Source of the DNA: Haliotis asinina
Taxonomy: Eukaryota; Mollusca; Gastropoda; Lepetellida; Haliotidae
Assembly: GCF_037392515.1 (NCBI RefSeq)
Contig: NC_090281.1
Span: 64,501-128,500, forward strand
Direction of reading: 5' to 3'
DNA: 64,000 bases
The notes below the pieces were generated by a model. The model was not told the DNA's origin, did not search any database, and saw only the letters and a list, made by a program, of their open reading frames with translations. Shown here piece after piece: positions 31,028-64,000 of this stretch (the stretch's first letter is position 1; every line of letters begins with the position of its first letter). The position numbers were made by a program, and so were the translations under genes.

Positions 31028-31490
31028 TTTATCGCACTTCTGATCCTGAAGAGGAAGAAGGAGGAAGCCCCCACCAGCAGTCAGGTGTCCACCAAAGCAG
31101 CACCTCCCCCGACAAAGGACTCCACCACCACCAACGAAGTAGGCAAACAGAGTGTCAAGACTCTCAAGAAACAGATGACTACTGATGTGCTGTGGAACAA
31201 CAGTTACTATCAGCAAACTGCTGGTCGCTGTGCTAGTCCTGACAAGCCCCCTCTCCTGCTAACCCCAAGGCAGCACCCCACAAAGAGTTGCCTCCTGATC
31301 TTTAAGATTTGTATGATCTACCACCAATGCTGCCACCAGAGATGCTGCCGACTGTCCCCACTACTGACGCAAAGCAGACAGCAGCTCCAGGGATGGAAAC
31401 GACTTCCGACACGACTACTCATTCAGAAGAGATGATGATGATGATGACGGATCCCATGATACTTTCCGTGATGCCTCCAGAGATGCCTCC
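31028..31490 (+). other. Low-complexity coding-like sequence at the left end of the capsid-type Polinton
   Basis: Ser/Thr/Pro/Lys-rich open frames, one continuous with the Gypsy integrase fragment by chance of junction. No domain is recognised. GC content and codon appearance match the Polinton genes that follow, so this is probably the eroded edge of that element. Confidence 0.35.
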
Positions 31491-31672
31491 AGAGATGACT
31501 TCAGAGATGACTTCAGAGATGACTTCAGAGATGACTTCAGAGATGCCTCCAGAGATGACTTCAGAGATGCCTCCAGAGATGACTTCAGAGATGACTTCAG
31601 AGATGACTTCAGAGATGACTTCAGAGATGACTTCAGAGATGACTTCAGAGATGACTTCAGAGATGACTCCCA
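31485..31672. repeat. 12-bp tandem repeat (GAGATGACTTCA)
   Basis: About 15 copies of a 12-bp unit, alternating GAGATGACTTCA with GAGATGCCTCCA, preceded by a GAT run near 31430. Read on + it gives alternating EMTS/EMPP; on - it gives EVIS repeats. The repeat lies inside a 151-codon open frame (31309-31764) that may be its own by-product. Confidence 0.93.
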
Positions 31673-31904
31673 TGTTTAATGATGAAAATCATTTTCATAC
31701 CAGACAAATGGACTTCCTACATTGTTCGACTTGTAATCCCCACGACCGTTTGAACTGGTGGTGATCTGTTGTTGCTGTTTTTCTTGTTGTTCACAGGTTG
31801 TTGTTCCTTCATCAATAAAATATGTGAATGGTTTGAATGTGTTGTATATCTTCAAGGTTCGTAGATCCTTGAGGTCATTTCTGCTGTAACCCGTGATAAG
31901 ACGT

Positions 31905-32578
31905 ATGTCGGGGACACTGTCAGAGGCTATGTCAGGGACACTGTCAGGGACACAGTTAGGGGCCGACGACCTTGTGGATTCCATGGTCACCCCACTCACG
32001 TTACGTCATCCCTTTACCATGTTGATTGCAGGCCCTACAGGGTCAGGTAAAACTTTGTTCGTCAAAACGTTTGTGGAGCATGTGTTTCAACCAGGGATTC
32101 TCGCTCTGCCACCTCAGGGGATCGTTTGTGTGTATAGTGAATGCCAACCCATGCATGAAGACTTGGAAGTGGTTACATCTAGGTTAGGCATTCCCCTGAC
32201 CTTTGTGCAAACCATGAGCGAAGCCAACACGCAGTTACCTGCAGGGTCTGCATCCCACCGGTTTATCATCATCATCGCAACACGTCCGCGCTGTACTTGA
32301 AGCAAAACCTCTTTGAATTGTTGCCTCATCATCGCACCATTAGTTTAAATGCCCACTACCTGGTGCTGTTTAAAAATCCGAGGGACGCCTCTCAAATGGA
32401 TCACTTGGCCTGACAAATCTTTCCAGGACAGAGGACTTTCCTTTGAAAAACTTATGAGGATGCCACTTTGGCTCCTTATTCCTATCTGTTTCTTGACTTG
32501 AAACCGACCACGGCTAAAGAGCATCATGTATGTACCCATCTCTTTCGCAGTCCCACCACCCTTTACATTCCCAGGTGA
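31905..32578 (+). pseudogene. Polinton packaging ATPase (FtsK/A32-like), broken
   Basis: Contains HPFTMLIAGPTGSGKT, a perfect Walker A (about 32023-32058), then IVCVYSECQP and, after a frameshift near 32270-32280, ISLNAHYLVLFKNPRDASQM, the conserved segment of Polinton DNA-packaging ATPases. A stop replaces the residue after DHLA (near 32410), and another frame change precedes YSYLFLDLKP. The stop at 32576-32578 is followed immediately by a TAAATAGAGG motif. In intact relatives this ATPase pumps DNA into capsids, so its presence marks this element as capsid-encoding. Not functional as it stands. Confidence 0.85.
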
Positions 32579-33180: not shown

Positions 33181-33507
33181 ATGCCTGCCCGTTTGAAACG
33201 CCACAGAGAAGCTCTCTGTCATGTGTGTAGCAACACCAGTCATGCGAAAGGCTATTTTGAAACAAAGTCTGAACTGAATCAAGCCATTAGTGAATGTGTG
33301 GTGAATTTGTATGGAGGTAACCTTCCTATGACAGCACAGCAACGACATCGTTTACAAAAGCATGGGCAACTCATGCAAATGTTGATGAAAGGGAAAGTGT
33401 CTGTGGCCAAGAAACGCAAACTGTTACAACAGAAAGGAAGGGGATTGGGTCTCTTGTCTGCCTTGGCATCGGTGGTGGGTCCTTTGGTGTCTGTCCTGTT
33501 GGGGTGA
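33181..33507 (+). CDS. Polinton small basic protein with hydrophobic C-terminus (108 aa)
   Basis: An intact frame starting MPARLKRHREALCHVC. The middle is basic and helical (RLQKHGQLMQMLMKGK, KKRKLLQQKGRGLG) and the end is hydrophobic (LLSALASVVGPLVSVLLG), suited to membrane or capsid-interior interaction. Small basic proteins with a Q-K-G-R-G-like motif and hydrophobic tail recur in Polintons and are thought to be minor virion components; that assignment is from general recollection. It has its own TAAATAGAGG motif 60 bp upstream and is followed by the next motif immediately after its stop. It is among the few intact genes of this element. Confidence 0.6.
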   Translation: MPARLKRHREALCHVCSNTSHAKGYFETKSELNQAISECVVNLYGGNLPMTAQQRHRLQKHGQLMQMLMKGKVSVAKKRKLLQQKGRGLGLLSALASVVGPLVSVLLG

Positions 33508-34518: not shown

Positions 34519-35700
34519 ATGAGACGTCCAAAGAGAAACAACAACAGCAAGTCCTCCCCCTCTTTGTCGCCTGCCTGTGCAGGATGGCTTCACCATACCT
34601 ATTACGATCCCAAACATCCTGCAGGCTATGAAGGGTGGCATGGTTTGTGGCAAGAAACAGTAAAACAGCACGCAGTGGGATCCCAGAAGGGGGGGAATCC
34701 AGAAGGGGAAGCCCTAGAAGGGGAAACCCGCACTCACGCAACATCAGGTTTGACAATGGTTGAAAACCCTGGACATGTACACCTTGCACAAACCAGTTCA
34801 GCAGTGCTTTTCCAGGGATCATTACCGTGGGGACCGCGTGGAAGAATTGGAATGACCCTCTAGCCTATCAAAATGAGAACCAAGGTTATCAGTATTTGCT
34901 GTGTGTCATCAATGTCTTCTCCAAAATGGCTTGGGTGCAACCCATGAATCCAAGACTGGCACCACGTTGATTGAGGCCTTTCAACGAATCCTGAAACAAG
35001 TTGAAGGACGTGTGCCCTCCATGTTACAGACTGACAAAGGGACCGAATTTGTGAATAAATCTTTTCAGGCCTTCATAAAAAAACATGACATCCATTTCTA
35101 CACCAGCCAAGACCAGAAACCAAAGCCTCGGTGGTGGAACGTTTTCAAAGAACGTTGAGAAACCGTATGTGGCGTTATTTCACCCAACATGGAACACTTC
35201 ACTACCTCAAGGCTTTACCCCAGCTTCTGCATGCCTACAATCATCGACTTCATCATACGATTGGACAATGACCTGTGGACATTCATCCCAACAACCGTTA
35301 TGATGAAATTCGGGTGTTGGATCATATGGAACAGCAACGACAGAAGCAACGCCAGAAGCAGAAGCACCGTCAACACCAGAGTTCTCTCTTGTTACCTGGG
35401 ACCCATGTTCGCTTGAACAAGGCCAAAGGGACCTTTGACAAAGGGTATCTTCCAAACTGGACCACCGAAATGTTCACCGTGGATCGGGTTGTGCAAGGAC
35501 GTGTCCCTCCTGTCTACCAAGTGAAAATGATCATGGGCAAGTGCTCCAAGGCACCTTTTACCCACAGGAACTACAACCCATTCAGAAAACGGATGACGTA
35601 TACAAAGTCAATCAGGTCCTGAAACTGCGATGCCGTCAAAAGAAGGAAGAAGTGCTGGTGAGATGGTCGGGATACCCTGTCAGCTTCATTTGGTCTTTAA
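34519..35700 (+). pseudogene. Polinton integrase with C-terminal chromodomain, broken
   Basis: N-terminal region has HTYYDPKHPAGYEGWHGL. After a frameshift the core shows NQGYQYLLCVINVFSKMAWV, LQTDKGTEFVNKSF (second catalytic Asp) and VVERFQRTLRNRMWRYF (catalytic Glu, in another frame). The segment expected to carry the first Asp reads YRGDRVEELEW and is altered. A C-terminal chromodomain is readable near 35610-35690 (VNQVLKLR ... EVLVRWSGYP). At least four frame changes and a stop (TTIGQ*) make it non-functional. The retrovirus-like integrase inserts Polinton DNA; the chromodomain may guide target choice. Confidence 0.88.
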
Positions 35701-35706
35701 ATAGGG
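35697..35706 (+). promoter_or_regulatory. TAAATAG(A/G)GG motif, variant copy 4
   Basis: TAAATAGGGT lies at the end of the integrase region and only 17 bp before the ATG at 35714, closer than the other copies. Confidence 0.35.
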
Positions 35707-35713
35707 TAACCAC

Positions 35714-35968
35714 ATGCTTCCAACCATCAGTTGGGTCATACACCCATCTGAGAGCGAACTGAGGCTCAGGTCCAAGGAGAACAACAAGAGTTCCTCCTCC
35801 TCACGTTGGTATTGCTTTGGCATGCACGAGTATGGTTCAGCTGGCGTTGAACAACAGTGAGAAGCAGTTGTGGACTGCCTTGTTGGCCAGTTGTCTGGGG
35901 TACTTGCTCCCACAACCCACTTTGGTGTCATCATCGTCGTCATTGTCACAATTGTCTTCTTCTTCTAA
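35714..35968 (+). pseudogene. Polinton small membrane protein, one in-frame stop
   Basis: An 84-codon frame from MLPTISWVIHPSESEL to a terminal hydrophobic helix FGVIIVVIVTIVFFF, interrupted by one TGA (35858-35860). The middle is Ser-rich. The tail anchor at the extreme C-terminus suggests a single-pass membrane protein. No family is recognised. The overlapping + frame (35817-36011) is a shadow. Confidence 0.45.
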
Positions 35969-36025
35969 CCCTGCATCTCCAACTACCTCAATGTCCAGTC
36001 TGGTTCCCTAAGAGCAGAAAGCAAA

Positions 36026-37144
36026 GATGTCCATGTCGTTGTTTTCCAAGCGGGACTTTACGTCACCTTACCCAGTAATGCTTCGATGGATGTTCATCCC
36101 AACAACAGGGTGAATCATTATGAAGCCAAACTACCTTTTCACATTTCCATGAATCGTCAAGAGTGGGAAGTTGGCGTCAGTGAGCTTCGTTTTCCCATGA
36201 CGTGGTACAATGTGTCATACCCCTTCAACTGGTTTGTGCTTCGCGTGATCAGTTCAGCAGCATCAGATGTGACCGTGGTCACATGATAGAAGAGAAGTGA
36301 ATCAGTGAAAAAGTGATTATTCCAGAGGGAGTGTATTCCGCTCGAGAACTTGTCCAGAGACATACTGCTTCAGCGTGCCTGTACACGATTGGTGGAAAAG
36401 CATACAGGTAATATTTACCAGGCGGATGTCAGAGAGCGGTACACCGTCACCGTGAACTACCCCAAAGAAGAACTCCGATTTCAAATGCGTGGCCAAATGC
36501 ATGTCAACTTTTATGCTCCCACTCCAAAAGACATGTGCAGGGTCATCACGGGTTCGTCCTGCAAATCAGCCACCCAGCCTGACCTACACCACTCAACTGG
36601 TGTTGCCTGCTTCCTTGGTACGCATGCTCCGATTCATGCAACTACCCATGGTCGATGAAGCACAGGAAATAATTCAAGTCTCCACTTACCCTGTCAGGTC
36701 AGCGTGTTTGACCATCCTCTTGTGGTGGGTGAACAGGAAGTCGACCATCTGGCTGACTTTGATACAGTGTACGTCTACTCGGATGTGATGGAAGATCAAA
36801 TCGTCGGGGATACCATGGCTCCCTTGCTGATGTATGTTCCTGTATCCTGTCGGATGAACAGCGTTGTGATGAAAACTCCCCAGCATCTACGCTACATGGG
36901 ATTGTGCCAGGGAACCACAGATGCCATTCAAATCTATTTAACGGATGACATAGGACGTCCCGTGACGGCGGATCTGGGAGCAGACGAAGGTCATAACTAC
37001 CCACGACACACGGGCAAGTTGGGACTAGAACTCCAGTTTGCAAAACCCTTACCTCGTCCTGTCACTCTTGTCTGCTGCGAGGAATACGAAAGCGTGTTGG
37101 AAATTGATCGGTTCCGCAACAGTCTGATGTCTAAGGATGGATGA
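36026..37144 (+). pseudogene. Polinton minor capsid (penton-like) protein, broken
   Basis: The start region reads LYVTLPSNASMDVHPNNR and WEVGVSELRFPMTWYNV, the typical N-terminal segment of Polinton penton-type minor capsid proteins (single jelly-roll). A stop near 36284 and further frame changes follow. Later segments (TVTVNYPKEELRF; YVYSDVMEDQIVGDTMAPLL; TTDAIQIYLTDDIGRPV) match the rest of that family, and the frame is open from 36704 to the stop at 37142-37144. Its stop overlaps the start of the protease gene. Implies that the ancestor made particles; the major capsid gene was not found in this window. Confidence 0.78.
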
Positions 37145-37340: not shown

Positions 37341-37534
37341 CAAAGGACACAACCTTATCGTTCATGTTCGAGTTCATACCGTTTGTAAACAAAAGATCAG
37401 GGACGCTCCTAATCCTGACTCTTTTGTCACATTTGTTCTTGTTAGTGAGGGAAAAGAAAACGTTAAAAAAACAACAAATGCCTTCTTATGACATGGCATA
37501 CAATGGCATGAAAGCATTCTTTAGTGAGATTTTA
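37341..37534. other. No gene recognised
   Basis: Between the protease fragment and the histone-type stem-loop; open frames are weak (MPSYDMAYNGMKAFF on +). Confidence 0.4.
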
Positions 37535-37536
37535 GT

Positions 37537-37552
37537 GGTCCTGAAAAGGACC
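37537..37552 (-). terminator. Histone-type mRNA 3' stem-loop downstream of the zinc-ribbon gene
   Basis: On the - strand: GGTCCTTTTCAGGACC, a 6-bp stem with loop TTTC, the architecture of replication-dependent histone 3' stem-loops. The 5' flank is A-rich (CAACAAAAC) and the 3' flank is ACTAAA. A purine stretch ACTAAAGAA follows about 10 nt after the stem, in the place of the U7-binding element. It begins 24 nt after the TGA of the - strand gene at 37577. Confidence 0.6.
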
Positions 37553-37576
37553 GTTTTGTTGTTGTTGTGGTGGTGA

Positions 37577-37858
37577 TCACAATGGCCACAGGGGTGGCAT
37601 CATGCTTTGGCGCAGGGGAATGCCTATCTTGGTTTTCTTCACTGGGCACCTGCTTCCATGGGTGAGGCACCGTATGTAAGTGTCCTTGAGTCCCGTACCA
37701 CAGTATACGCAATAGAACATGCCATTATAGGCATTGGTCCCATTGGCATAGACTGGTAAACACCCGTGACATTGGCTGCATTTCCATGCTGGCAGTGGTG
37801 GTGCTGCCGGCAGCGAAGATGTTTCCAACGAAATCAACTCCAAATCCCAGTTTTCCAT
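37577..37858 (-). CDS. Zinc-ribbon protein of the capsid-type Polinton (93 aa)
   Basis: An intact - strand frame starting MENWDLELISLETSSLP. Two Cys pairs form a zinc-ribbon pattern: CSQC (residues ~27-30) and CVYC with a following Gly (~50-54); an additional Cys-His-Cys set (RCLTHGSRC) follows, then a basic stretch KKTK. Unlike the other genes here it is transcribed leftwards and has no A-rich polyadenylation signal, but a histone-type stem-loop 24 nt after the stop. A related, broken ribbon lies on + at 38369-38512. Such small zinc proteins could be regulators; no function can be assigned. Confidence 0.6.
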   Translation of the reverse strand: MENWDLELISLETSSLPAAPPLPAWKCSQCHGCLPVYANGTNAYNGMFYCVYCGTGLKDTYIRCLTHGSRCPVKKTKIGIPLRQSMMPPLWPL

Positions 37859-38368
37859 GGTTGTCCGCTCAGGTCCTCCTCCTCATCCTACAGAGCAGAG
37901 CTCAACCAACCACAGGACAACACCTCACGACCATGACGCCACGGATGCCACGTCACGACCTCACGCGCAAGCACGACATCATCGATGTGACGTTGGCACT
38001 TCAACGATGGACCATATATATAAGTTCCAAAATGTTTTTACAGTGACACATCAGACTCATCAACATAAACACAGGAAAAGTCAAAGTCATCGACCAGCAC
38101 CCTACCGAAAGAATTGTGGTCGGAAACAATGCCTCAGATGCAGTCCCACCTTTCACATGAATGCTGGCATCAAGAGGGCAGAAACAACTGAACCTACCAC
38201 GGCAGTAAAAGCGCTTGCGGCAGCTGCCACACTCACCCCACCTCTACACGCTTGCATCACTGCTAACAGAAACAGACATGCCGTCCACGTCACCACCGCC
38301 GACTACAACAAAAACAACAGGAGCGACAGAAACATCTGATTCCATCCGAAAGATAGCAGAAAAATGGC
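37859..38368. other. Intergenic region with TATA-like box; no certain gene
   Basis: Holds TATATATAAG (38016-38025) on +, about 340 bp upstream of the second zinc-ribbon sequence. A + frame (to 38339) with a basic Cys-containing patch (KNCGRKQCLRC) may be its N-terminal part; evidence is weak. Confidence 0.35.
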
Positions 38369-38512
38369 GCTTGATCATGTGTCCTACCTGTTTGAAAGCT
38401 TATCCAACCAACAAGTTGACATCGTCCCTGGAGCTACGTGGTAAGTGTGCATCTATTGTGGCAAAGGTATAAGGAAGCAAGCACAACCTCTTCACGACAA
38501 TACCTGCCCCGG
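38369..38512 (+). pseudogene. Second zinc-ribbon sequence, frameshifted
   Basis: Reads LIMCPTCLKAYPTNKLT, then after a frameshift near 38440 VCIYCGKGIRKQ and HDNTCP. The order C-x2-C, about 20 residues, C-x2-C-G resembles the intact - strand protein at 37577-37858 (CSQC ... CVYCG), so the two look like paralogues facing away from each other. It ends where the 341-bp tandem repeats begin. Confidence 0.45.
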
Positions 38513-38519
38513 AAAATTT

Positions 38520-39665
38520 TCGCCTGCTTCTAGGTAAACTCACCGGCGTATGCACTTGCTCGCGGGCGAATCAAGACTCGAACCGGTTCGCTGCGCCAGC
38601 TACCCTGTCACCATCATCGCCTCTCCTCTCGGTCTGCTTCCGACACTATCACCCATCTCTAGGCCAAAGTCAGCAGAGTCTACACTTGCTCACGGGCAAA
38701 TCAAGACTCGAACGGGTTTGCCTGCGCCAGCTACCGTTTTACCATCATCGCCTCTCCTCTCGAGGTCGCCCCCTCAACCTCTGTGCAACACCAGTGTTTT
38801 GCCTGCTTCGTGGCTGAGACATCGCCTGCTTCTAGGTAAACTCACCGGCGTATGCACTTGCTCGCGGGCGAATCAAGACTCGAACCGGTTCGCTGCGCCA
38901 GCTACCCTGTCACCATCATCGCCTCTCCTCTCGGGATCGTCCCCTCGCCTGCTATGCAACACCAGCATGTCGATCTGCTTCCGACACTATCACCCATCTC
39001 TAGGCCAAAGTCAGCAGAGTCTACACTTGCTCACGGGCAAATCAAGACTCGAACGGGTTTGCCTGCGCCAGCTACCGTTTTACCATCATCGCCTCTCCTC
39101 TCGAGGGCGCCCCCTCAACCTCTGTGCAACACCAGTGTTTTGCCTGCTTCGTGGCTGAGACATCGCCTGCTTCTAGGTAAACTCACCGGCGTATGCACTT
39201 GCTCGCGGGCGAATCAAGACTCGAACCGGTTCGCTGCGCCAGCTACCCTGTCACCATCATCGCCTCTCCTCTCGGGATCGTCCCCTCGCCTGCTATGCAA
39301 CACCAGCATGTCGATCTGCTTCCGACACTATCACCCATCTCTAGGCCAAAGTCAGCAGAGTCTACACTTGCTCACGGGCAAATCAAGACTCGAACGGGTT
39401 TGCCTGCGCCAGCTACCGTTTTACCATCATCGCCTCTCCTCTCGAGGGCGCCCCCTCAACCTCTGTGCAACACCAGTGTTTTGCCTGCTTCGTGGCTGAG
39501 ACATCGCCTGCTTCTAGGTAAACTCACCGGCGTATGCACTTGCTCGCGGGCGAATCAAGACTCGAACCGGTTTGCCTGCGCCAGCTGCCGTTTTACCATC
39601 ATCTCCTCTCCTCTCGAGGGCGCCCCCTCAACCTCTGTGCAACACCAGTGTTTTGCCTGCTACGT
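38520..39665. repeat. 341-bp tandem repeat, GC-rich, 3.5 copies
   Basis: Unit starts (TCGCCTGCTTCTAGGTAAAC) at 38520, 38822, 39163 and 39504; periods are 302, 341 and 341 bp, the first carrying a 39-bp deletion. Each unit consists of two related ~170-bp halves marked by CAAGACTCGAAC and CACCATCATCGCCTCTCCTC. Open frames of about 200 codons cross the array because the repeat is GC-rich and stop-poor; they are not convincing genes. Confidence 0.93.
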
Positions 39666-40640: not shown

Positions 40641-41160
40641 CATTACCTACGGACATGCCTAGCATCTTTGCTAGAAAGAAAATATAGCTGAAAAAGATAT
40701 ACTATGTTAGATATATAAAGAATTGTATGTTTGAACCAAATATATCATGAAATAGACTTTTGCGGAACCACATGAACGAAACATCGTTTTAAATGCATTG
40801 CATTTGAAATGACTTATATAGCGCAGAACGGATATAGAAAAATATATCTGAAAAAGACATAACACATACATAAAGAATTGCATAACTGAACCAAATACAT
40901 TATGAGCTATTTGTGTTAACCAGCACTCACCACGTGGAGGTTGCTCATTTAAGAGTGCCATTTTTCTTCTCCTGCACCATTCCCACAACAGCAAGTTCGA
41001 ACAGCGAACCCCTTTACTACTGCTGTATAAACCTAATGGGTCGAAACTGACATAAGGTTATGGAATTACAGGCTATAACCTACTACTTCTATCCTACGGT
41101 TTTGGCTTTATCAACTTTCCGGTCTACTTTCACTTTCACCTACTTGTTTCTCACCTTTTG
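40641..41160. repeat. Degenerate ~159-bp duplication and spacer
   Basis: CTGAAAAAGA(T/C)AT with AAAGAATTG(T/C)AT and TGAACCAAATA recur near 40689 and 40848. The remainder up to the tyrosine-recombinase stop is unique with no gene. Confidence 0.6.
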
Positions 41161-41171
41161 GGCTTTATGAG

Positions 41172-42812
41172 CTAGCCTTTTCCTTTGCTTTTCCCCTTTC
41201 CCTTCCCCCTACCTTCAAGGTGTTGGGACTGGGGCTGGAGCTGGCTGGAGGAATCTGTTGGAACTGACGCCGATGCAGATTCCTCAGCGTTTGATGTACC
41301 CGCAGCTTGTTGGATAACATCTTGCACAAAAGGACACTCACTAGCAGCCTGTAAGGGAGTCTTCTTAGTGTAGTACCTACTGACAGTCTTACGTTTTGCA
41401 GCATCATCGGGATGCTGCCTTGCCACTTCAGTCTCCAAAGCTTTCCGAACATCCGTGACCGTAAATGTCCTCCGTTCGTTTTCCAAGTTGGGTTTAAGGA
41501 AACCTCTTGTCCTGTGATAGCGGACCAACTCGAGACACATATTCCCCACTTCAGTGCCGTCCACTCTCCTGAAGAAAGGCGATTTGTCCGGTAGAGCATC
41601 TTCAGGCATGTCACCACGTACATATTGACGGTAATCCCTGAACATGTCGTAATCCTCTTTGGACAAGCTTAGGGTGACCAGGAAGCTCATGGACGTCTTG
41701 TGGTCCATGAAAGAAAGTTGGTGCCTCCTGGCAACACACCGTGCCTTATTGAAATCTGCCAACTTCATACATGACGCCACTGAAGGTCTTTGGGCATGTC
41801 CAAGTTGAATTATCCCACAAGACAAGTACCGCATCACCAGGCGCTGATAGTCCTCAGATGGAAGTTGATCTGCCTTGGCCCGGTCCAGGATGTCCCTCAC
41901 CTCTTGTCTGGTTGCAGGATCGGTGTACCCCTTTTGAACAACGGAAATGGGCGGCGGTTGTTTGGTTTCATCTCTGAATTCTGTAACAGATTTACGGACC
42001 TCTTCGCGTTTATACTGGCTAGAGACACCTGTATATGAACAATGCGTAGCACTTGTAAACCTACGCAAATTATCGAAAACCCTTGGGAACATTTGAACAT
42101 ACGTTTGGCAGTAGCTGAGAAAGGATTTGACAGATGACATGTAATTTTTAATGCCACCTGCAGATACCCCATTTTGTGAAAGGACCGTGTGAAAATAATG
42201 AATTTCATCTACGTGCTCAAATATATCAAAGTTGATACAAGCCGTATTACTATTTGGGAAAACATGTTTTTGGATATAATAGAAAAACTTAGAAACGCGG
42301 CGACACGTGTCACCAGCATTACGCCCTGCTTTTTTAAGAATATTGGTTAAATATTGATAAAACCCTGAAAGTGTCGGCTCACTTTCAGGGAACCTATGGT
42401 ATAAGCCAGTGTTTGTAAGATTAGCCCTGACTGTGTTTTGTTTGTAATTATACCGAGTACCACTTCTGGTAGACCCAGTTAAACCAGCACTGGTACTCGG
42501 CATTGGATTACTAGTTGAAGGAGAGGCTGCAGATGCGTCCTCTCCTTGAATTGTGTGGCCAAAGTGTTTAAGTACCCTGATGTAATCAGGGATTTGATTT
42601 TTGTTGACACTGTATGTGCCACAAAATGCCAATAGAGCCGACATTGACACCAGCTGTGTAGCAGTATAGGACTCGCTACGGCGGCGATTTTGGGCGTGTA
42701 TGGCGTGTAGACCAGGAGTAGAGCTACCAGGATAACATTGCTTTAAATGCGCGATGCCTTTGTAATATGTTTTACACTTTTGACAAACGACCGAAATGTT
42801 TGTGGAAGGCAT
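41172..42812 (-). CDS. Tyrosine-recombinase-like protein with N-terminal zinc finger (546 aa), intact
   Basis: The longest intact frame in the window. N-terminus: VVCQKCKTYYKGIAHLKQCYPG, a C-x2-C...H...C zinc-binding motif. A Ser/Thr-rich linker follows (~90-115), then a helical region (~140-260) like the core-binding domain of phage-type integrases. The C-terminal half has GHAQRPSVASCMKLADF (candidate catalytic Arg), a Lys in MDHKTSMSF, FTVTDVRKALETEVARQHP (the usual His-x-x-Arg has Thr in place of His) and VSRYYTKK (candidate nucleophile Tyr). This suits Crypton- or related YR-type transposases and domesticated relatives, but the degenerate box II leaves catalysis doubtful. The tail is GKGKGKSKGKG. 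The start ATG follows a plausible context; no frameshift or stop is present, unlike almost all neighbours. Confidence 0.6.
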   Translation of the reverse strand: MPSTNISVVCQKCKTYYKGIAHLKQCYPGSSTPGLHAIHAQNRRRSESYTATQLVSMSALLAFCGTYSVNKNQIPDYIRVLKHFGHTIQGEDASAASPSTSNPMPSTSAGLTGSTRSGTRYNYKQNTVRANLTNTGLYHRFPESEPTLSGFYQYLTNILKKAGRNAGDTCRRVSKFFYYIQKHVFPNSNTACINFDIFEHVDEIHYFHTVLSQNGVSAGGIKNYMSSVKSFLSYCQTYVQMFPRVFDNLRRFTSATHCSYTGVSSQYKREEVRKSVTEFRDETKQPPPISVVQKGYTDPATRQEVRDILDRAKADQLPSEDYQRLVMRYLSCGIIQLGHAQRPSVASCMKLADFNKARCVARRHQLSFMDHKTSMSFLVTLSLSKEDYDMFRDYRQYVRGDMPEDALPDKSPFFRRVDGTEVGNMCLELVRYHRTRGFLKPNLENERRTFTVTDVRKALETEVARQHPDDAAKRKTVSRYYTKKTPLQAASECPFVQDVIQQAAGTSNAEESASASVPTDSSSQLQPQSQHLEGRGKGKGKSKGKG

Positions 42813-46613: not shown

Positions 46614-46629
46614 GGCCCTGAAAAGGGCC
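46614..46629 (-). terminator. Orphan histone-type 3' stem-loop
   Basis: On the - strand GGCCCTTTTCAGGGCC, followed by ACCCAAATA, an almost exact match to the animal histone mRNA 3' stem-loop and its ACCCA flank; AACGGAAAAC about 15 nt later could be the U7-pairing element. The sequence immediately upstream on the - strand does not encode a histone C-terminus. It may be the tail of a lost histone gene or of an element gene. Confidence 0.55.
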
Positions 46630-46670
46630 TAATGGCAGCTAGCATGGGATTGTGAGCAGTAGGAGTTGGG

Positions 46671-47000
46671 TTGTTGACGACGACAGTCGTAGCCGCTCCG
46701 GTGGTGTTAGGACTTGAATTAGCGGCTGTAGTGATGGGAACAGTTGGATCAGTGTTTAAATTCGTTGCTTGCAAATTGAATCATAAAGCAAAGAAACACG
46801 GTGAAATTAGAATACTTGCTCTATCAAAGCTAAACACGACAGAAGATCATGTTTCCACCGCACTCAATGACAACAAAATCTCAGAAGACGTGTTTCGTTT
46901 GATCATCAGCGAACTAGAAAAATACAACAAAATGAAGAATGAAATTAGATCAAACATTCATAAAACATATTCTATAAGCGATAACGGTAAAAAAAAGTAA
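46671..47000 (+). CDS. Membrane/coiled-coil protein C-terminus, mobile-element-associated family (uncertain)
   Basis: About 109 residues: a hydrophobic segment (VVAAPVVLGLELAAVVMGTVGSVF) followed by a charged helical part (KAKKHGEIRILALSKLNTTE, DHVSTALNDNKISEDVFRL, ISELEKYNKMKNEIRSNIHK) and a Lys-rich end. The pattern K-A-K-K-H ... L-N ... D-H-V-S-x-A-L-x-D is one I associate with a family recurring in invertebrate genomes, apparently within transposable elements; this is recollection, not proof. The true start is unknown and lies upstream, so it may be a 5'-truncated copy. A histone-type stem-loop lies 40 bp upstream on the opposite strand. Confidence 0.4.
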   Translation: MLTTTVVAAPVVLGLELAAVVMGTVGSVFKFVACKLNHKAKKHGEIRILALSKLNTTEDHVSTALNDNKISEDVFRLIISELEKYNKMKNEIRSNIHKTYSISDNGKKK

Positions 47001-59039: not shown

Positions 59040-59567
59040 GCATTACGAGTGTGTATGTCCTGTATATTTTGTTATTAATTCAGTAATAATTATTATTGGG
59101 TTACAACATTTGGTGTTTTGAATATTAATTATGATAGGTCACATTTCATTTTAATAGATGGTCAACACTTTTAGGATTCTGGTTTTCCGGAATTTATCTG
59201 CTCCTAGTTTACTTCCAGGAGACTTCTTCTAGGGCATTCTACAGTGTTGATGATGTTCGTTTGTGCCTGAACTTTCCGGAGCGAATTAGTAAATATATAT
59301 AAAGGCTGGTTGCCGTGCGGAGGAGGACACACACACTCATTCATGTTTGCTGGAGTTACATCACTGCCACGCTTGATCATCAAAACCCATCAACGTCTGA
59401 CCTACATTATCTGCTGTCACACCGATCGCCGTGTTGACATTCTGCATATACCTTGCATACCTTGCTCTCGTTGCATAGTAATACATGATTTGAATGTAAG
59501 TGACTTGTCTTTGTTCTGTTTTGATGGTTCACAGGGGATTTCTCAAATTGTTGTTCTTAACCGTAAC
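59040..59567. mobile_element. Solo Gypsy-type LTR inside the Polinton polymerase gene
   Basis: The left part matches the LTR at 18877-19248 (TTGTTATTAATT(C/A)AGTAAT, GGTCACATTTC(A/G)TTTTAATAG(A/G)TGGTCAACACTTTTAG), and the right end has GGGGATTTCT and CCGTAACA (59560-59567) as in that LTR. It is about 155 bp longer internally and no internal retrotransposon sequence follows, so it is a solo LTR. A clear target duplication was not found. Confidence 0.75.
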
Positions 59568-60062
59568 AATAACGTCTTAGTCGCGCTCAACATGAACAAA
59601 TTCCACATCAAATTCAACCAGCCTGTATATGTGGGAATGAGCATCCTCGACCAAAGACGTGAAAAACCACATACATCTGTACGACACCAGCAACAACACT
59701 GTCAACAAAAAAGTGCTCAGCAAGATGAAAGACGGGTAAGCCAGCATACTGATTGCTGAGTATATTGTGTTGAGACCCATGATGTATTCCATCAAGAAAG
59801 CTGATGACAATAAAATTACGAAGGTGTGAAGAAACATGTGGTGAAAAAGCACATCAAGTATGTCAAATTTAAGCAATTCCTGTTCAAAAAGAAAACGTTC
59901 AAACAGCAATCAAGAAGACCTCTCTGTCTCCCATGGACACAAAACGATGGATTGCCATTGACTGAGTCCTCACTTACGCCTATGGACACACGCACATGCT
60001 GACTCAGTAAATTAAACAGACGTGTCACATGCATGGGATAAAACAAACGAAGGAGAAAATTT
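59568..60062 (+). pseudogene. Polinton DNA polymerase B, C-terminal part, motif C deleted
   Basis: Resumes with FHIKFNQPVYVGMSILDQ, matching the polymerase at the right edge of the window (SHIKFNRPVYVGMSILDL). The ~50 residues that contain the YTDTDS catalytic motif there are deleted here, and reading continues in another frame with NTVNKKVLSKMKDG and later KKHVVKKHIKY. Ends near 60,000-60,060 before the integrase. Same decayed copy as 57101-59039. Confidence 0.8.
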
Positions 60063-60955
60063 ACTATAGACCGTGAGGGTACTGGAAAGGTGTGGACACC
60101 ACCCTGAAATTCGCCAAAGCCGCCAGGTTCCCAGAAGACAAAGCCAAAGCTCCAAAAACAAGCTGTCTGGCAAGTTTACCTGCCTGCACCTCGATATATC
60201 CTGAGGAGAATATTTGACATCTCAACACCAAATCACGTTCACCAAGCCTACCTCGTGTTCTCATACACAACAGGGTGACACACAAAATGTACAAGCATGC
60301 CCTGACCATCATCGATGTCGCCAGTCGCTATAAGGAAGATGAACCTTTGAAGTTGCCAAAGCCTTTGAACGCATCTACAAACACAGTCAGTTGACCTGGC
60401 CCACTGTATTGCAAGTCGATCCCGGACGCAAGTTTATGGGAGCCATGTTGCAGCTGCTGGTGGGAGCTCACCACAGCCAAGCCATCATCAAGAGAGTCAA
60501 TCTCACCTTGGCTCAATGCCTGTTCTTACATCAGTACTCATGCGGTTTGGTCGATCCCCAAAACAAAAACACGGAATGCTTGCCGAGAATGCTGGACGGC
60601 ATGAACCACAAAGTCACCAGACTCGTGGGCAAGAGACCCATCAAAGCCATCAAAATGAAATCCATTACTGCGACACCAGCAGCAGCACGTCATGATAAAA
60701 CGGAAGAGAAACCCTTACCGGACCGAAACCCTCAGGTACTTGTACCAGCCGGGCCAATATGAGGGAGACAGCAGAAAACGCCCCACCAATCCGTTATGGT
60801 CGATGAAAGTGTGCACCATCGACCTGGTCAGCATGAAAGACGGTGAACCTAACCTGTACTACCTGAAAGACGGGCCACCAAGAGCCTTCATCTGAGAAGA
60901 GTTAATGATCATGCCTCGCGACACTGTTCCATCACAACCCACCGCTTCATTTTAT
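60063..60955 (+). pseudogene. Polinton integrase, decayed copy (second group)
   Basis: Fragments match the intact integrase at 62429-63397: WQVYLPAPRYILRR, VHQAYLVFS (first catalytic Asp of HQADLLFL changed to Tyr), LQVDPGRKFMGAM (second Asp kept), AIIKRVNLTLAQCLF (catalytic Glu changed to Lys), NHKVTRLVGKRPIKAIKMKS, and YYLKDGPPRAFI near the end. Several stops and frameshifts separate them. The order polymerase then integrase is the same as in the right-edge copy. Confidence 0.83.
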
Positions 60956-62428: not shown

Positions 62429-63397
62429 TTACCGTGTGTTGGTAGGAGGTAACACTGTGCCGTACGGTACGATCAATAATTCTTCTCTTACAAACCCCCT
62501 ACCCGGCCCATCCCTCAAGTAGTATAAGTTAGGTTCGTCGGCTTTCATATCCACTTTATCTATGTTGTAAGTTTTGACTGACCATATAGGATCGGTGGCC
62601 CGCTTACGGCTATCACCCTCGTGTTCCCCCGGCTGGTATAGATACCTCACTAGGGCCCTATCTGGTATCTGTTTCTCCTTCCCACGTAATGGAGCGGCCG
62701 ACTCTGCAACTATTGATTTTAGTTTGATAGCGTCTGCCGGTTTCTTACCGGTGAGACGGGTGACTTCATGGTTGATTGCCGACACCACCTTGGGTAACCT
62801 CGTGACCCATTCAGTCGATCGTTTTCCAGGGGTGGCCATCTCCCTAGCATACTGATGGCCGAACAAGCGCTCAGCCAAAGTCCTATTAAATCTCTCAACT
62901 ATGGCTTGGCTGCGATGGGCTCCGGCCGTGCCACGCCTGACCTTTGTATCGTGTTTGGCTAGCAGTTGTGACACGGCACCCATGAACTCCCGTCCGGGGT
63001 CAACTTGCAGCTCTGTTGGCCACGTCAGCGGGCTGCGTTTGTATATGCGTTCGAATCCTCTGGCTACCTGGGCCGAATCTTTCGTGGTCAAGGGTTCGGC
63101 TTCCTTGTAGCGACTGGCTACGTCCACTACGGTTAAGGCATACTTGTACCTCTTGTCGTGGGGTAGGAACAGTAGGTCTGCCTGGTGAACGCTATTAGGT
63201 ATGTTAATACCGAACCTCCTTCTAGGCACGTAGCGTGGTGCCGGCAAATAGATCTGCCACAGGGCTTGTTTTTCAAGCCACGCTTTGGCTTCCTCCGGGG
63301 GTACTCGCGCTATTTTAGCTAGCTTATCTACTGCGGTAGCTCCTTTCCAGTACCCACGCGGGCTGTAGTAAATAGCCTCAAATTTTTTCATGTCCAT
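62429..63397 (-). CDS. Polinton integrase (rve-type, 322 aa), open frame
   Basis: N-terminal helix region (FEAIYYSPRGYWKGATAVDK, PPEEAKAWLEKQALWQIYLP) like an integrase zinc-free linker, then the DDE core: HQADLLFLPHDKRYKYALTV (first Asp), LQVDPGREFMGAV (second Asp) and AIVERFNRTLAERLFGH (Glu). All three catalytic residues are present. A conserved C-terminal module follows (VRYLYQPGEHEGDSRKRA, YNIDKVDMKADEPNLYYL). No stop or frameshift. Its ATG at 63397 lies 20 bp before the end of the polymerase gene, so the two overlap. A perfect hairpin lies after the stop. It would insert the element's double-stranded DNA. Confidence 0.9.
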   Translation of the reverse strand: MDMKKFEAIYYSPRGYWKGATAVDKLAKIARVPPEEAKAWLEKQALWQIYLPAPRYVPRRRFGINIPNSVHQADLLFLPHDKRYKYALTVVDVASRYKEAEPLTTKDSAQVARGFERIYKRSPLTWPTELQVDPGREFMGAVSQLLAKHDTKVRRGTAGAHRSQAIVERFNRTLAERLFGHQYAREMATPGKRSTEWVTRLPKVVSAINHEVTRLTGKKPADAIKLKSIVAESAAPLRGKEKQIPDRALVRYLYQPGEHEGDSRKRATDPIWSVKTYNIDKVDMKADEPNLYYLRDGPGRGFVREELLIVPYGTVLPPTNTR

Positions 63398-64000
63398 ACG
63401 CGTATGTGTTTATCCCATCAATAGCTATCCAACGTTTCGTGTCCATAGGCGACAGGGACGTCTTGTTTATAGTCAGTCCGTACATCTTATGTCCATCACT
63501 TCTAAGTGTGTTCATTTTATGCCTAAAGGTACGGGTCTTGAACAGGGCTTCCTTGAATATGGCGTGTTTGAGGTGTTGTTTCACCACATACTTCTTAACC
63601 CCCTTAGCCTTCCGGATCTCACTATTGTCGGCTTTCAGTATGGAGTACATCTTAGGTCTCAAACCTATGTACTCGGCTATGGGCGTGCCAGCACACTCAT
63701 CCTTCATCTTACCTAGGACCTTTTTATTTACCGTACTGTGTATGGCATGGGTCTTAGGGTAGTCGCTGGTGTCGTATAAATCGAGGTGTTTTTTCATGTC
63801 CTCGTACACGTCCTCGGTTCGAATCTCCATCAGCAGGGAATCCGTGTCAGTGTACAGCACTTCACACCTGTCGCCGTACTGTTTCTTGAGCTCGTTGTAG
63901 TAAAAGTCGTACATCAGGTGTTTGGATAAATCGAGGATGCTCATCCCCACGTAAACAGGCCGGTTGAATTTTATGTGGCTTTTCTTCATGTGTAGGGCAA
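63378..64000 (-). CDS. Polinton protein-primed DNA polymerase B, C-terminal part (runs off the window)
   Basis: The - strand frame is open from its stop at 63378 to 63989 and beyond; the window edge cuts it. It contains RPVYVGMSILDLSKHLMYDF, the catalytic motif C VLYTDTDSLLMEI (both Asp present), KTHAIHSTVNKKVLGKMKDE, KGVKKYVVKQHLKHA and a C-terminal thumb (RSDGHKMYGLTINKTSLSPM). Length before the edge is about 203 residues out of a family that exceeds 800. The final 20 bp overlap the integrase start. The same family is represented in decayed form at 57.1-60.1 kb. Confidence 0.88.
   Translation of the reverse strand, partial: ALHMKKSHIKFNRPVYVGMSILDLSKHLMYDFYYNELKKQYGDRCEVLYTDTDSLLMEIRTEDVYEDMKKHLDLYDTSDYPKTHAIHSTVNKKVLGKMKDECAGTPIAEYIGLRPKMYSILKADNSEIRKAKGVKKYVVKQHLKHAIFKEALFKTRTFRHKMNTLRSDGHKMYGLTINKTSLSPMDTKRWIAIDGINTYAYGHEKI

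Follow-up and report, generated by a model that had tools for sequence, protein, structure and literature searches.

The locus raises the question of whether a gene that does not encode a histone can end its mRNA in the manner of the animal replication-dependent histone genes. Within the 64,000-nucleotide stretch of Haliotis asinina DNA that we analysed (hereafter the window), a 93-aa zinc-ribbon ORF is read on the minus strand from 37858 to 37577, and 24 nt past its TGA, on the coding strand, lies the palindrome GGTCCTTTTCAGGACC (37552-37537), which is followed by ACTAAAATCTCACTAAAGAATG. We lean, with some reserve, towards the reading that this ORF belongs to a Polinton-like element as a small gene of regulatory type, and that its mRNA ends, or in an active ancestor ended, via the replication-dependent histone pathway of the host.

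The hairpin downstream of the zinc-ribbon ORF

The hairpin (GGTCCT-TTTC-AGGACC, 37537-37552, minus strand), recognised from its sequence, a consensus search and folding, has a perfect 6-bp stem and a TTTC loop, with AAAAC as its 5' flank and ACTA as its 3' flank, and its sequence, coordinates and spacing after the stop codon are as the earlier note had given them. The histone-type architecture claimed for it was borne out by the Rfam covariance model Histone3 (RF00032), which aligns with the hairpin and both flanks over 37511-37557 of the minus strand at 37.2 bits, against a gathering score of 34 (E 3.1e-7), and covers 46 of 46 model positions. When the whole window was searched on both strands with curated thresholds, this was the sole match to reach the Rfam gathering score. 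In folding calculations, the 30-nt stretch of the site forms the expected hairpin at -9.3 kcal/mol (z -3.4; 2 of 200 shuffled sequences fold equally well), and the 75-nt 3' region that contains it has a z of -2.2, with 5 of 200 shuffles as stable. Moreover, the downstream AAAGA that had been reported is present at 37522-37518, as part of an AAAGAA (37517-37522, minus strand) that is by its sequence a candidate U7-pairing, or histone downstream, element. Its first base lies 15 nt past the stem, and the distance of about 10 nt that had been given for it fits only when counted from the expected cut.

The site thus resembles the 3' end of replication-dependent histone mRNAs (RF00032), on which SLBP and the U7 snRNP act, in its 6-bp GG..CC stem, its TTTC loop, its A-rich 5' flank, the AC past the stem, the downstream purine element and the nearby stop codon, and it differs in that the gene is a zinc-ribbon ORF without histone similarity which apparently sits in a mobile element. 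The site departs from the 23-base sea urchin consensus AACGGCTCTTTTCAGAGCCACCA only at one flank base and in two base pairs that are exchanged. The same layout of hairpin, flanks, purine element and near stop codon is set out for histone genes in three sources (PMC6210712, PMC5011920, PMC1924863), and two of them describe the pathway of SLBP, U7 snRNP and CPSF73 through which replication-dependent histone mRNAs are formed (PMC1924863, PMC5011920). For the bivalve Lucina, a palindrome near the stop codon is reported in all histone mRNAs found, and purine-rich elements nearby only in some (PMC6210712).

Polyadenylation signals bear on the site in two ways. None of four poly(A) signal hexamers occurs on the minus strand between 36000 and 38100, and between the hairpin and 36000 there is neither AATAAA nor ATTAAA; about 0.5 are expected in 1.5 kb, hence this absence is not significant, and as support for histone-type processing it is weakened because both hexamers are scarce anyway in the GC-richer stretch around the site. 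In addition, ACTAAA hexamers adjoin the stem, which counts against a histone-type end. A hairpin and a poly(A) signal are not exclusive, since C. elegans histone genes are described as having both (PMC1924863). The same hexamers, lying immediately past the stem, would also suit a reading in which the palindrome acts as a GAAA-loop hairpin in a plus-strand transcript, or as a DNA site, and the minus-strand mRNA is polyadenylated normally; any TTTC-loop hairpin reverse-complements to a GAAA-loop hairpin. We give this reading very little credence, as the Histone3 match is on the minus strand and the hairpin lies 24 nt past the minus-strand stop codon as opposed to about 400 nt past that of the plus-strand capsid-type ORF.

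Chance and a second hairpin

Chance accounts poorly for the hairpin behind the zinc-ribbon ORF. Under Markov models, the loose consensus GGYYYTTTHCARRRCC is expected 0.008-0.011 times per window, its perfectly paired form 0.0011-0.0016 times, and the strict pattern GGYYCTTTTCAGRRCCAC in its perfectly paired form about 1e-5 times, a figure that speaks directly against a chance palindrome resembling a histone hairpin; in 100 shuffles of the window, the expectation for the loose consensus is 0.01 against the 2 that the window contains. The figures are nevertheless to be read with care, because the window was picked for this very finding, and such selection makes the odds look more striking than they are, to an extent that cannot be gauged. 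A 16-mer that matches with up to three mismatches is, moreover, not rare here (3 found against 0.46 expected, with as many in 2 of 100 shuffles), as a chance origin would have it.

Sequence collections from other organisms allow the same question to be asked empirically. The strict pattern occurs in 68 stretches of 257 Gb of prokaryotic contigs and in 3 stretches of viral contigs, in which the ORFs look by eye like those of phages. Perfect pairing is found in 29 of these 71 matches, all of them prokaryotic, a density of about 7e-6 per 64 kb. They are not all independent, since flanks are shared within two groups among them, L023/L024/L027 and L042/L045, which together account for five of the 29. 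None of the 29 chance stems reaches the Histone3 gathering score, and the site behind the zinc-ribbon ORF, scored with its flanks, surpasses them all. Ten of them, chosen by hand and leaning to A-rich flanks, were scored exactly and range from 19.2 to 33.1 bits, the upper end of which is a point in favour of chance. A second loop variant was found in 6 stretches of viral contigs, a single one of which is perfectly paired (21.3 bits), and the gathering score is reached by none of the nine viral-contig stretches that the two hairpin patterns yielded (3 and 6). Placement argues in the same direction as the scores: the 60 nt past the stop codons of the 59 ORFs of at least 90 aa amount, by arithmetic, to no more than about 3% of the positions of the two strands, and the hairpin lies within such a stretch and on the coding strand. 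Altogether, we regard a chance palindrome as unlikely.

This judgement has to take into account a further hairpin that fits the strict pattern, GGCCCTTTTCAGGGCC at 46629-46614 of the minus strand (GGCCCT-TTTC-AGGGCC, 46614-46629), which is followed by ACCCAAAT and had escaped the earlier note. Its RF00032 score of 31.0 bits is below the gathering score of 34 and inside the range of the ten exactly scored chance stems. No recognised gene ends at it and no minus-strand ORF of at least 90 aa stops nearby, which strengthens the case for chance and counts against a histone-type end at the first site. Among stop-to-stop frames of at least 30 codons, one that has 38 codons and no ATG ends 9 nt upstream of this hairpin and another on the minus strand crosses it, both largely antisense to a plus-strand frame. 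The plus-strand ORF at 46656-47000 has, among 35 candidates, 6 homologues with 51-61% identity, which lie in ENA/JGI contigs, and a scan with the alignment of these homologues found no relatives in viral contigs; the ORF matches no Pfam family and is composed of a hydrophobic hairpin and then a helical, charged region. By eye, the likeness of the homologues in the plus-strand frame seems to extend, past one stop, to LMAASMG (46629-46649) at the edge of the hairpin. The suggestion that the second hairpin is itself conserved plus-strand coding sequence gained only partial support, as homologues exist but do not share the residues, GGPEKG, that the hairpin would specify. We lean towards coincidence, in or beside coding sequence, for this second hairpin, but two strict hairpins within 64 kb by chance alone are very unlikely. 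It may be the trace of another gene with a histone-type end, and it serves either as a warning against taking the first site at face value or as a hint of more such sites in the genome.

The zinc-ribbon gene and its Polinton-like surroundings

The 93-aa ORF (37577-37858, minus strand, ATG to TGA) was recognised in the ORF list by its zinc-ribbon motif (CxxC ... CxYCGxG), and in full it carries CxxC ... CVYCGTGLK ... H...CP. Its length is unremarkable among the 59 ORFs of at least 90 aa in the window. Pfam returned for it only ZZ_ADA2, at 17.9 bits and thus under the cut-off of 27.5, and no histone family; its PDB sequence matches are weak (best E 0.24), and a structure model from the single sequence was too poor, with a mean pLDDT of 45.6. 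Neither a set of about 5.8 billion proteins, at the word sensitivity of that search, nor the viral contigs yielded homologues. We believe that the gene is probably real because the opposite strand carries, at a distance of 0.4 kb, a divergent and broken paralogue (38278-38537, plus strand), where piecewise comparison revealed a frameshifted sequence with CPTCLKAY ... CIYCGKGIR ... H...CP. As single comparisons, the pieces of this paralogue match the 93-aa ORF with E-values of 5e-4 and 0.034; in a search of the entire window, the better piece reaches only an E-value of 1.8. The motif CxYCGxG[LIVM][KR] is confined within the window to the ORF and its paralogue and is absent from all 40 simulated windows; less weight attaches to the plain CxxC-x12-24-CxxC motif, which occurs 5 times against an expectation of about 1. 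Between the two divergent ORFs lies TATATATAAG (38015-38024, plus strand), which is TATA-like on both strands and might serve as a promoter. Judged from these sequences, the zinc ribbon probably represents a real gene family in a divergent arrangement. The 3' end of the paralogue enters a tandem-repeat array, so that little can be read into the missing hairpin at that end.

The zinc-ribbon ORF had been assigned to a capsid-type Polinton. In profile searches, the integrase bore this out and the ATPase stayed below the cut-offs; the capsid identity is presumptive. The integrase pieces (34877-35759, plus strand) comprise an rve core (PF00665, 36.0 bits against a cut-off of 32.6, E 8.9e-9), the only part of the element above a curated cut-off, and a chromodomain-like tail at 16.9 bits (Chromo), under the cut-off of 25.1. 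The P-loop ATPase piece, of A32/FtsK-like type (31890-32297, plus strand), has weak Pfam matches, all of them under the cut-offs. The capsid-type ORF (35969-37141, plus strand) consists of pieces that share a single frame interrupted by stops and is, we presume, a Polinton minor capsid gene; Pfam and PDB sequence searches yielded no match for its pieces, and the structure model of one piece was too poor (mean pLDDT 31.8). Integrase, ATPase and capsid-type pieces are all on the plus strand, between 31.9 and 37.1 kb. Directly upstream of the ATPase piece, a 12-nt tandem repeat runs within an ORF (31422-31704, plus strand) and encodes TSEM/PPEM repeats.

The rve integrase with its chromodomain-like tail, the putative piece of a P-loop ATPase, the small zinc-binding accessory genes and, presumably, the capsid-type ORF are features in which the fragment is like Polinton/Maverick elements and adintoviruses; unlike in these, neither a polymerase nor terminal repeats were found in it. 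The polymerase result, no polymerase match in Pfam for the ORFs of the element that were examined, is a weak test, because the ORF at 63378-63989, which we take to be PolB-like, was equally unmatched. Inverted pairs of at least 60 nt are absent from 28-64 kb, and around the element there are only short, low-scoring ones. Searches of viral contigs with the capsid-type and ATPase pieces and with the integrase of another Polinton of the window, which reach only close relatives, found no related loci, and no homologues of the ORF at 33181-33507 were found. Two more Polinton pieces, with integrase and, presumably, PolB, are situated at 59343-60912 (plus strand) and 62429-63991 (minus strand); they face each other and are about 61-63% alike, and rve was matched in the second.

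The element looks like a decayed Polinton-like fragment, and the 93-aa gene likely belongs to it. That the tools support the Polinton identity in part counts against the complete reading, and it could be argued that the hairpin is genuine but that the gene behind which it lies is the host's or another element's. No terminal repeats that would mark the right edge of the element were found, and the failure to find homologues of the zinc ribbon would fit such an origin as well. We nevertheless consider it improbable, since the 93-aa gene and the capsid-type ORF converge, with about 440 nt between them, and a divergent paralogue adjoins the former, a layout that in our judgement is virus-like.

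Decay of the element, evident from the in-frame stops, means that an intact hairpin is no proof of present selection. It would also accord with a passive origin, in which a host histone 3' end was gained by recombination and the hairpin is idle for the zinc-ribbon gene or is found in this copy only. The hairpin and both flanks do look like a whole histone 3' end; however, the hairpin is placed exactly as a working one would be, and tblastn with the four core histones detected no histone gene near the site and no histone coding relic in the window, where the hits were weak and the best, to H4, had 37% identity over 43 aa (E 0.046, 41427-41519). We therefore view a passively acquired end as rather unlikely.

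Proposed histone-type processing of a Polinton-like gene

In favour of a histone-type end for the zinc-ribbon mRNA are the hairpin, its flanks, its position on the coding strand 24 nt past the TGA, and the paralogue across the shared upstream region; that the site is represented by a single copy and that no homologue of the protein turned up count against it. If the end is of this type, the hairpin in the nascent transcript would bind SLBP, the purine element would pair with U7 snRNA and CPSF73 would cleave about 4-5 nt past the stem, which would give a non-polyadenylated mRNA present mainly in S phase. The protein would then be timed to host DNA synthesis, and this would suit an element that is copied in the nucleus. 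SLBP/U7 processing, S-phase timing and the absence of poly(A) are what we infer from the resemblance to histone mRNA ends. More tentatively, the machinery that forms the 3' ends of animal histone mRNAs may have been captured by a virus-like mobile DNA element for one of its own regulatory genes, whose early expression would thereby be locked to the S phase of the host.

Zinc-finger-like Ziftr genes are described for some adintoviruses, and adomaviruses have histone-like genes termed Histoid; what this account treats is proteins that resemble histones, as opposed to mRNA ends of the histone type (PMC11071296). A search of the open-licence literature found no report that links Polintons with histone stem-loops, and among the titles and abstract beginnings listed, none concerned a gene of a virus or transposon that ends in the histone manner. 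To our knowledge, SLBP/U7 processing is used in nature by hardly any genes other than the replication-dependent histone genes. If the favoured reading is true, the locus would thus represent a non-histone use of this machinery by a mobile element, and it would imply that selfish DNA can tie gene expression to host DNA replication via RNA processing. It would also provide a simple sequence signature to seek in other Polintons and in adintoviruses, and would make it possible to ask whether S-phase control of a foreign gene requires no more than the histone hairpin.

The window contains further features. Between 22592 and 24354, inverted and tandem units of 297 nt each carry a tRNA-Thr according to ARAGORN (6 calls), and no tRNA match in the window is at the Rfam gathering score. 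On the minus strand, an HDV-like ribozyme candidate (40893-40959; RF02682, 33.1 bits against a gathering score of 44, E 0.025) lies about 210 nt downstream of an intact 546-aa ORF (41172-42812, minus strand), which has no convincing Pfam match and which we take to resemble a tyrosine recombinase.
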